Assembly (NCBI RefSeq): GCF_020809045.1
Contig: NZ_CP078079.1
Span: forward strand, 1,488,001 to 1,552,000
Reading direction: 5' to 3'
Length of the DNA: 64,000 nt
Origin: Pseudarthrobacter sp. L1SW
Lineage (GTDB): Bacteria > Actinomycetota > Actinomycetes > Actinomycetales > Micrococcaceae
In this document: positions 52,025-59,187 of the stretch, in pieces
Numbering within the stretch: position 1 is the first letter of the stretch
Layout: every line of letters begins with the position of its first letter
Notes under the pieces: generated by a model
What the model was told of the DNA's origin: nothing
Databases searched by the model: none
What the model saw: the letters and a program-made list of their open reading frames with translations, nothing else
Translations under genes and position numbers: made by a program

Positions 52025-52705
52025 ATGGACGCCAGGCTGGCCCTGCGGGCAGTGGACATCGCAACCGATGTCCACTGCCCGCAGGCGCAGCAGGATTGCC
52101 TGGAAGGATTCATGGAAGGGCTCGTCCCCGGACCCGCTGAACAACTGCGGGCAGCGGCCATGGATCCGGCTGCGGCCCGGCGGTTCCTGGCCGGCAGGGC
52201 AGCACTGCGCCGTTTCGCCGGCGACGTGCTCGGTCTCCCGGCATCGCAGCTGCAGCCCTCCTACTCCTGCCCCCAATGCGGTTCCGGACCCGGCCTCTCC
52301 CATGGCCGCCCGGGCTTCCTGCATCGCGGCCGTCCGGCGCCCCTGCTGCTAAGCATGGCCAGGACCGGCAACTGGGTCCTGCTGGCGGCAGTCTCCCCGC
52401 CCGGCAGGGGAGAGCGGCTGGGGGTGGACGCCGAGGATCCGGGACGGTTCGGCTTCGAGGGGTTCGACGCCGTGGCCTTGACCCCCTCCGAGAGGCTCAC
52501 CCTTGCAGGACTTCACGGCGGGGCGCTGCTGCGGGAACGGGCCCGGCTCTGGAGCCGTAAGGAGGCCTGGCTCAAGATGACTGGCGACGGGCTCAGGGTG
52601 GATCCCAGGACGGTGGCCGCACTGGAGGAACCTGGAGTGCGGGACCTGCCGTCCACCGCAACCGGCCTGCCGGCGTCGCTGGTTGCTGCCGTGGCCCTGG
52701 GCTAG
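52025..52705 (+). CDS. 4'-phosphopantetheinyl transferase superfamily protein
   Basis: A 226-residue protein that would move the phosphopantetheine arm of CoA onto a carrier-protein serine. Signature parts are LGVDAEDPG near residue 137 (metal-binding Asp and Glu of the usual GxDxE) and RLWSRKEAWLKMTGDGL near 179 (W-x2-KEA-x2-K). Size and layout fit the Sfp/Gsp-like group. It lies next to an M1 peptidase gene and a Pls-type synthetase whose carrier domain needs this modification, so it is the likely partner. It overlaps the M1 gene stop by 4 bp (convergent). Confidence 0.88.
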   Translation: MDARLALRAVDIATDVHCPQAQQDCLEGFMEGLVPGPAEQLRAAAMDPAAARRFLAGRAALRRFAGDVLGLPASQLQPSYSCPQCGSGPGLSHGRPGFLHRGRPAPLLLSMARTGNWVLLAAVSPPGRGERLGVDAEDPGRFGFEGFDAVALTPSERLTLAGLHGGALLRERARLWSRKEAWLKMTGDGLRVDPRTVAALEEPGVRDLPSTATGLPASLVAAVALG

Positions 52706-54096
52706 GCCAGCCGGCTCCGCGCGGCGGGCAGCGGCGGAAGCGCAAGCTCAAAGAGCCACGGGTGGAGCACTGCCTCGGCGTCAATGCCAGCAACACCGTT
52801 GGCGATCAGGATGAAGTCGGCCGTTGAGACGGTGCCGTGGCGGTGGGTCCTGGTCCATTCCTGCAACAGGGTAAAGAACGCAAGGTCCCCGCAGTGCATG
52901 CGGAGCGCGTGCAGCGCCAGTGCCCCGCGCTTGTAGACACGGTCGTCAAACATCAGGGCCGGTCCGGGGTCTCCGATGAGCAGGTCCTGCCCGGCGGCGG
53001 AAAGCCTGCGCCAAGCCGCAGCCGCCCTGTCGTGGGTGGCCATCACGCCGGCCGCCTCGGACCAGATCCATTCGGCGTAGCAGGCAAACCCCTCGTGAAG
53101 CCAGATGTCGTGCCACCCGCCGACTGTGAGCGAATTTCCAAACCACTGGTGCGAGAGTTCGTGGGCGATCAGCCGTTGGGCGTCCCAGTCCAGGCTGAGA
53201 TGGTTGCGGCCCAGAATGGCCATTGTCTGGGCCTCCAGCGGAATTTCCAGGACATCGTCCGCCACCACAACCGTGTACTCGGAAAACGGGTAGGGCCCAA
53301 AGCAGCTGACGAACGTGCGCATCATGTCCGGCTGCAGGCGCAGCCCCTGGCGGGCCGCGGCTGCCAGGGCAGGCGGGACTGCGGCGGTTTGGCGCACGCC
53401 CGGGGCGACCCCCGGGTCGAGGACCAGGGATTCGTACCGGCCGATCTGGACCGTGGCCAGGTAGGTGGCCATCGGCTCCTCCTGCTCGTAGGTCCAGGTC
53501 TCCCGGCTTGCCCTGATGCTGTGGCCCACCAGCGTGCCGTTGCAGACGGCACGGTAATTGGCGTCGGTAGTCACCGCGATCCGGTAGCTTGCCTTGCTCC
53601 GCGGATGGTCGTTGCACGGAAACCACGACGGCGCGCCGTTGGGCTGGCCGGCCACCAGTACGCCGTCGGTCAGTTCCTCCCAGCCCACTTCACCCCACAG
53701 CCCGCGGCGCGGAGCAGGATTGCCCTCATAGCGGACGTCTATTGTGAACGTTTCGCCCGGGGCGAGGTCGGCGTCCAAATGGACCACCAGTTGTTCTGCC
53801 CGCTGCGCGAAGCGCCGCACGCGCCGCCCGTTCATCTGCACTTTGACGGCGCGAAGGCCCGCCAGGTCCAGGACGACGGCGGACGCCTGCCTGGCTGCCG
53901 TGGCGTAGATGACGGCACGGCCGGTGAGCCGGTTGGCGGCCATCCGGTAGTCGAGGTCCAGCTCGTAGCGGGACACCCGGTACGAGTCGGTACCGTGGCC
54001 CGGCATGTAGCGGTCGGACAGCACCCCCGGGATGGCCGTCCCGGTGGCGGGTCCGGACGCTGCTGGTTCAGGAAGACTCATGGACGCGGGCCTCAA
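52702..54096 (-). CDS. M1 family zinc metallopeptidase
   Basis: A 464-residue enzyme with the zinc site RLIAHELSHQWFGNSL near residue 290 and the downstream zinc Glu in WLHEGFACYAEWIW, 19 residues further on. An N-terminal beta-domain precedes it. The usual substrate-anchoring G-x-M-E-N motif is replaced by IPLEAQTM (near residue 257), a variant seen in a subgroup of bacterial M1 proteins. There is no signal peptide. It begins 20 bp after the pls stop on the same strand, so it is probably cotranscribed. M1-type enzymes are reported to degrade epsilon-poly-lysine in Streptomyces, so a linked role is plausible. Confidence 0.9.
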   Translation of the reverse strand: MRPASMSLPEPAASGPATGTAIPGVLSDRYMPGHGTDSYRVSRYELDLDYRMAANRLTGRAVIYATAARQASAVVLDLAGLRAVKVQMNGRRVRRFAQRAEQLVVHLDADLAPGETFTIDVRYEGNPAPRRGLWGEVGWEELTDGVLVAGQPNGAPSWFPCNDHPRSKASYRIAVTTDANYRAVCNGTLVGHSIRASRETWTYEQEEPMATYLATVQIGRYESLVLDPGVAPGVRQTAAVPPALAAAARQGLRLQPDMMRTFVSCFGPYPFSEYTVVVADDVLEIPLEAQTMAILGRNHLSLDWDAQRLIAHELSHQWFGNSLTVGGWHDIWLHEGFACYAEWIWSEAAGVMATHDRAAAAWRRLSAAGQDLLIGDPGPALMFDDRVYKRGALALHALRMHCGDLAFFTLLQEWTRTHRHGTVSTADFILIANGVAGIDAEAVLHPWLFELALPPLPAARSRLA

Positions 54097-54116
54097 TCAC
54101 AAACGGTGGCGAATAC

Positions 54117-58103: not shown

Positions 58104-58183
58104 CTGGGCAGTGTCCCGGGGCAAGATGAACGGAAAGTGTCCAGGTTTGCCGGCCGTCCGTCCGTTGTTCGGCATGAGTTCAT
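58100..58183 (-). CDS. Possible 27-codon leader ORF overlapping the pls start
   Basis: ATG 58183 follows TAAGGA (58195-58190) by six bases, the best ribosome site here. Its frame runs 27 codons ([14 protein letters not shown]...) to a TGA that overlaps the GTG at 58103 in the pls frame (GTGA). This would couple leader and pls translation. The alternative is that ribosomes start pls at ATG 58175, 14 bases from the same site. No function is claimed for the peptide. Confidence 0.35.
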
Positions 58184-58221
58184 CGCGGTTCCTTAGTGTG
58201 CCCCCCCAAAAGCGGCTGGCC

Positions 58222-59187
58222 CTATGGAACCAGGACCACCTTGCCGGTGGTCCGGCGCCCCTCGAGGTCGCGGTGAGCCTGGGCGGCCTCAGCCAGCGGG
58301 TACTGTCCGCCCACCCTCACTTTCAGGCTGCCGTTGGCGGCGGCCGCGAAGATTTCGTCCGAACGCCAGCGCCGTTCCGCCGCGTCCAGCAGGTGGTGCG
58401 CAATGGTTGGCCGGGTCAGGAAGAGCGAGCCGCCCGCGTTAAGGCGCTGCGGGTCCACCGGGGGAACGGGACCCGAGGCTGCGCCGAAAAGCACCAATGT
58501 CCCCCTGACGCGCAGGGCGGCCAGCGAGCCGTCGAACGTGTCCTTTCCCACGCCGTCGTACACGACGTCGGCACCCTTGCCGTTGGTGATGTCCCTGACG
58601 GCATCGGTAAATCCCTCGTAGCGCAGCACATGGTCCGCGCCGGCGTCGAGGGCGAGCCGTTCTTTTTCATCCGTGGATACGGTGGTGACCACGGTGGCAC
58701 CCTTGGCCTTGAGCAGCTGGGTCATCAGCAGGCCAACGCCGCCGGCGCCGGCGTGGAGCAGCACAGTGTGCCCGGGCTCCACCTTGAAAGTGGAGTTAAT
58801 CAGGAAATGGGCCGTCATTCCCTGCAGCGGGAGGGCGGCAGCGGTGAGGTCGTCGAGTCCCTCCGGCACGGGCAGGGCCTTGTCCGCATCCACCAGCGCG
58901 TAGCCGGCGTAGCAGGCGGTGCCCTCGGCGGTGGCCACCCGGTGTCCTTCCGCGAAGCCGGTCACGCCTTCGCCAAGTCCGGCAACCGTCCCCGCCGCCT
59001 CAGAGCCCGGCGTAAAGGGATACGGGACCTTGTACACGCCGCTGCGCTTGTAGGTATCGATGAAATTCACTCCTGCCGCACCAACTTTGACCAACAGCTG
59101 GCCAGGGCCCGGGAGCGGCCGGTCCACCTCTACATATTCGAGGACTTCCGGGCCGCCCGCCTGCCGTGCGACGATTGCATGCGTCAT
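58222..59187 (-). CDS. NADPH:quinone oxidoreductase family protein (MDR superfamily)
   Basis: A 321-residue medium-chain reductase without the catalytic or structural zinc cysteines. The N-terminal GroES-like part has [20 protein letters not shown], typical of Qor, and the Rossmann motif is [20 protein letters not shown] near residue 146. It would reduce quinones or similar carbonyl compounds with NADPH. It lies 46 bp upstream of pls on the same strand; whether the two share a transcript is unclear. Confidence 0.92.

Follow-up and report, generated by a model that had tools for sequence, protein, structure and literature searches.

Epsilon-poly-L-lysine (epsilon-PL) is an antimicrobial polymer and a food preservative, the natural role of which is little understood. 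In Streptomyces albulus, the synthetase gene pls forms one operon with the gene of PldII, which is reported as the main epsilon-PL-degrading enzyme (PMC4361855, PMC9223678). The product of the Pls of Corynebacterium variabile is reported to have been proven by expression in Streptomyces coelicolor, although C. variabile itself, with a functional pls, gave no product in culture (PMC8117764). According to the same account, this functional pls stays silent both in the Corynebacterium it comes from and in C. glutamicum, whereas it works in S. coelicolor under a Streptomyces promoter, and its authors point to regulation; it also reports Pls homologues with similar pockets in Arthrobacter, among others, and uses the pocket argument for the coryneform Pls (PMC8117764). 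For PosA, the delta-poly-L-ornithine synthetase of Acinetobacter baumannii, a model with three beta-helices on six helices has been published, and in epsilon-poly-beta-lysine systems a lysine 2,3-aminomutase gene is reported beside the synthetase gene (PMC10522769). Gene clusters listed as 'NAPAA' (epsilon-polylysine-like) are reported for Pseudarthrobacter and Kocuria genomes (PMC12025171, PMC12149201).

The stretch of 64,000 nucleotides analysed here (the window) corresponds to positions 1488001-1552000 of a 4.10-Mb single-contig genome and contains three adjacent genes that can be compared to these systems. We hold it to be quite probable that they form a cassette of a predicted epsilon-PL synthetase, a phosphopantetheinyl transferase (PPTase) likely arming its carrier domain and an M1 peptidase likely degrading the polymer. 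The features of the locus are as follows.

54117 to 58103, minus strand: Pls-type synthetase with adenylation, carrier (Ser563) and membrane polymerisation domains (TIGR02353, PF00501, PF00550)
52702 to 54081, minus strand: M1 metallopeptidase, PldII-like in position (PF01433 and PF17900)
52025 to 52705, plus strand: PPTase (PF01648)
52702 to 52705: CTAG common to the stop codons of the PPTase and peptidase genes, read from the sequence
58222 to 59187: quinone oxidoreductase, a gene of the neighbourhood

The genes and the layout described in the original prediction were borne out by profile matches and by reading of the sequence. Next to the three genes lie pheS and pheT in one direction and the quinone oxidoreductase gene, argC and argJ in the other. 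The PPTase gene is convergent with the peptidase gene and overlaps its stop as predicted, both TAG stops lying in the 4-bp CTAG; the same 4-bp overlap was computed in six other loci (L058, L100, L153, L155, L159 and L160). The synthetase gene has two candidate starts, the GTG assumed here, which gives a protein of 1328 aa, and an ATG at 58175, which gives 1352 aa, and its frame is free of internal stops. The peptidase gene had been placed downstream of the synthetase gene on the same strand, which is correct (minus strand), with a gap of 20 bp, which would hold if translation began with the TTG at 54096; the ATG at 54081, which by eye has a possible ribosome site, lies 35 bp behind the synthetase stop. 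Elsewhere in the window, positions 10773 to 12008 on the minus strand encode a 411-aa protein that matches HGSNAT_cat, a membrane N-acetyltransferase domain.

The Pls-type identity of the synthetase was confirmed by a match of 696.6 bits to TIGR02353, the Pls/PosA family (cut-off 423.1), which spans residues 649-1338 of the 1352-aa form, together with matches to the adenylation (PF00501) and carrier (PF00550) domains. Its nearest named relatives are synthetases of Arthrobacter and Pseudarthrobacter. The three hexapeptide domains attributed to its membrane part are barely visible to Pfam, as the Hexapep profile gave a single match of 24.5 bits, under its cut-off of 27. They were nevertheless substantiated by the TIGR02353 match, by the mutual alignment of the three repeats (pairwise BLASTP E-values of 2e-11, 4e-12 and 8e-6) and by an AlphaFold model of residues 610-1328 of the 1328-aa form, computed from an alignment with 26 relatives. 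This model (mean pLDDT 87.1, pTM 0.88) shows three consecutive units of helices and a beta-helix, in agreement with the published PosA model (PMC10522769), and its single units retrieved hexapeptide acyltransferases (Foldseek, VIA-align). The motif THLFHDR is found in the third unit only, the other two units having no histidine at the aligned positions, and H710 is the only other histidine kept in at least 97 percent of the 91 aligned rows beyond residue 560. THLFHDR may have a catalytic role.

Among solved structures, the best relative of the synthetase is 7WEW, the adenylation domain of an epsilon-PL synthase, which we take to be that of S. albulus; residues 58-541 of the 1352-aa form align with it at 645 bits. 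At positions picked by what we take to be the motif rules for the substrate pocket, the ten residues of the window synthetase, DAESIGTVVK, are the same ten as in the aligned row of 7WEW. Because of this identity the predicted product is most likely epsilon-PL rather than an unknown polycation, and the basic isopeptide polymer, which had been proposed without a name, can be named with fair confidence from the comparison with characterised synthetases that had been called for. DAESIGTVVK, THLFHDR and the carrier serine are common to all 81 synthetases of the window and the 80 named loci. When all 95 aligned synthetases of the window and the fetched loci were scored, the pocket code was DAESIGTVVK in 84, DAESIGTVIK in 7 and DFECLSVVTK in 2, and 2 were not scorable.

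The possibility that the synthetase makes another isopeptide polymer (of ornithine, diaminobutyrate, diaminopropionate or beta-lysine), or else a product that is short or mixed, was also considered, as the family is reported to make such polymers (PMC10522769) and as pocket codes vary within it (the 7 DAESIGTVIK and 2 DFECLSVVTK synthetases among the 95). However, all ten pocket residues match 7WEW and, against a polymer of beta-lysine, lysine 2,3-aminomutase (TIGR00238) gave no match in the window's genome. The locus was thus rejected as an epsilon-poly-beta-lysine system, the aminomutase that neighbours the synthetase in such systems being absent from the genome, and another product in general appears highly improbable.

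The seven DAESIGTVIK synthetases are those of L139-L142, L147, L148 and L099. In six of these loci the fetched stretch contains no peptidase gene, though a PPTase gene is present in four of the six; the product or the self-protection may be different for these synthetases. The two DFECLSVVTK proteins (L143 and L144, both in genome G122) are distant TIGR02353 paralogues with neither a peptidase nor a PPTase gene nearby.

The peptidase has an intact HEXXH-X18-E zinc site, and H307, E308, H311, E330 and Y383 are each kept in at least 97 percent of 167 aligned peptidase rows, which include one, L098, without linkage to pls. The peptidase gene is on the pls strand and beside pls in all 80 named loci, with its end at most 2 kb away in 79 of them. 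Close synthetases were found in 14 of 296 genomes of a phylum sample, and the peptidase gene adjoins pls in each of the 12 loci fetched from these, i.e. the 14 minus the window's own genome and G009. The operon-like position proposed for the peptidase gene is upheld. The M1 gene might instead encode an ordinary cytoplasmic aminopeptidase inactive on epsilon-PL. In line with this, no signal or membrane segment was found in the peptidase, the first 70 residues being without a hydrophobic segment, and its nearest solved relative is the zinc metalloprotease 6A8Z (195 bits). Its constant place as the same-strand neighbour of pls in the named loci speaks against an unrelated function, as does the equal position of S. 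albulus PldII, reported to be the main degrader of epsilon-PL (PMC4361855, PMC9223678), so that an ordinary aminopeptidase seems rather improbable and an enzyme acting on the polymer is preferred.

The PPTase matches PF01648 with 37.3 bits (cut-off 25) and contains the sequences LGVDAE and WSRKEAWLK; its S110, G133, D135, E180 and K184 are invariant among 38 aligned relatives. We take it to be of the Sfp type, on the assumption that the motifs GVD and WxxKEAxxK are diagnostic. It is one of only two PF01648 genes in its genome, the other being AcpS-like. The enzyme could be a housekeeping PPTase that serves other carrier proteins and lies beside pls only through an old, stable gene order at pheT. 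Four PP-binding matches were found in the genome, pls included, and none to a condensation domain. Besides the fourth match, L006, presumed to be the fatty-acid carrier, there are two further PP-binding proteins, namely an NRPS-like frame of 856 aa outside the window (L008:22-2592), with AMP-binding, PP-binding and sub-threshold Acyl_transf_3 matches, and a small carrier protein (L009). Since these two may be further clients of the PPTase, 'dedicated', as the enzyme had been called, is too strong a word, whereas its grouping with the other two genes is upheld by linkage and co-occurrence.

Co-occurrence was analysed in 149 Micrococcaceae genomes with a profile built from pls-linked PPTases, a genome being counted as synthetase-bearing if it had a Pls-family synthetase over the cut-off. 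The profile matched in 81 of 82 genomes with a synthetase and in 22 of 67 without one, its negatives being incomplete, as it missed a PPTase found by local scan in L237. As the profile came from pls-linked PPTases and had missed L237, the genomes were recounted with plain PF01648, and two or more genes were found in 72 of 82 genomes with and 21 of 67 without a synthetase. Ten genera were of mixed synthetase status; eight of them lean the same way, two tie and none is opposite. Among genomes with a condensation domain, the profile matched in 21 of 21 with a synthetase and in 12 of 16 without, and among those free of condensation domains in 60 of 61 versus 10 of 51, the latter difference arguing against a mere housekeeping enzyme.

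The comparison of synteny across the Micrococcaceae showed a PPTase gene in the fetched stretch of 66 of the 73 pls loci of the family. It is not beside pls in the other seven (L055, L057, L079, L096, L103, L105 and L116), of which L116 is cut by a contig end, while two, L055 and L057, are from the same genus as the window. Among the named loci, PPTase linkage was seen in 26 of 30 from Micrococcaceae, in 4 of 7 from other Micrococcales and in 0 of 43 from outside the Micrococcales; L149, L186 and L211 stop soon after the peptidase gene, and the weakest PPTase matches counted are those of L203, L206 and L208. One of the 12 phylum-sample loci has the PPTase gene, and it is from Micrococcales (L130). 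The linkage is thus a feature of the Micrococcales, a restriction that would fit a housekeeping PPTase; in actinobacteria with large genomes, other PPTases may take on this task. Both the profile matches in 22 of the 67 synthetase-less genomes and the missing adjacency in all 43 loci outside the Micrococcales were counted as points against the cassette.

Comparisons of gene order bear directly on the stable-order explanation. The PPTase gene and pls are found close together at places other than pheT in L073, L085, L099, L106, L107, L110, L114 and L139-L142, and the PPTase gene is on the opposite flank of pls in L074, L084, L086, L088 (which shares its contig with L168) and L170; both arrangements argue against that explanation. 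The pheT site was fetched from seven of the genomes in which pls and the PPTase gene lie elsewhere; six show pheT and the oxidoreductase gene, which was not reached in the seventh, and at none of the seven sites did pls, the peptidase or the PPTase give a match at E 1e-4, the PPTase query being the window protein only and insensitive. A further 20 pheT sites without pls were fetched, 15 of which are complete (pheT, oxidoreductase gene and argC). At 12 of these 15, the PPTase gene is gone along with pls, again contrary to a housekeeping role; it is kept in L229 and L230, and a partial match in L231 sits beside a pls fragment. In L232, L243, L246 and L247, the matches to pheT and the oxidoreductase are spaced by 41, 77, 107 and 197 bp, respectively. 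The PPTase gene is also kept at pheT without a local pls in L145 of genome G122, which has other Pls-family genes elsewhere; this site and those of L229 and L230 would suit an enzyme with other clients. Taken with the evidence above, the housekeeping explanation is considered unlikely, and a PPTase working with the synthetase is preferred.

Short pls-like fragments lie between pheT and the oxidoreductase gene at L231:6763-6972 and L248:10269-11011, in genomes without a Pls-family synthetase, L248 being one of the 12 complete sites without PPTase; these fragments seem to be what is left of a gene that was lost. In L120 (genome G144), both pls and the peptidase gene are broken into several frames next to an open PPTase frame, which looks like a decaying cassette.

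According to these comparisons of loss and rearrangement, it is mostly PPTase-peptidase-pls that appears and disappears as a unit, without the oxidoreductase gene. The original prediction had let the module reach position 59187 and thereby taken in the quinone oxidoreductase gene, which has to be left out, because it stays at pheT where pls is missing. Whether the Micrococcales carry a self-sufficient, movable cassette with its own PPTase and its own degrading peptidase, the three genes being acquired and lost as one at pheT and at other sites, is in our estimation evenly balanced.

In the proposed working of the cassette, the adenylation domain, with its pocket equal to that of 7WEW, would adenylate L-lysine, and the PPTase would transfer phosphopantetheine to the carrier domain at Ser563. 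The membrane part, with THLFHDR in its third repeat, would link the lysyl units via the side-chain amine and move the chain outwards. The peptidase would cut epsilon-PL for self-protection, recycling or control of chain length, as proposed for PldII. What the sequences show is the identity of the genes, the integrity of their motifs, the match of the pocket, the linkage and the co-occurrence, whereas the working outlined above is predicted. If the reading is true, epsilon-PL would be a common and overlooked product of soil Arthrobacter-type bacteria, and the cassette would be a small set of genes in soil bacteria that grow fast and are non-filamentous. The PPTase that accompanies pls also suggests poor carrier activation as a second possible cause of the silence of pls in some hosts. 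C. glutamicum presumably has a PPTase of the Sfp type of its own, which tempers this idea.

Among the known systems, PosA is reported to have the same succession of adenylation, carrier and membrane polymerisation domains as the window synthetase, but it differs by its substrate, ornithine, and by its single-gene operon (PMC10522769). The operon of C. variabile consists, as in the window, of the synthetase gene and a downstream peptidase gene; the available part of its account makes no mention of a PPTase, and the species is outside the loci compared here (PMC8117764). The S. albulus pls-pldII pair resembles the window in the layout of the synthetase, the 7WEW pocket and the same-strand peptidase gene directly downstream (PMC4361855, PMC9223678). 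Its two genes are reported to overlap by 4 bp, whereas those of the window are 35 bp apart, and PldII is reported outside the membrane, in which the window peptidase, without a signal or membrane segment, may differ. The window further differs by the PPTase gene beside the pair, which is found in none of the 11 phylum-sample loci outside the Micrococcales, and our literature searches yielded no paper that links a PPTase to pls. The synthetase family, the lysine pocket, the presence in Arthrobacter and the pls-peptidase pair are thus already published, whereas the co-occurring, lineage-specific third gene, the PPTase, and the site comparisons showing that the three genes come and go together are new here.
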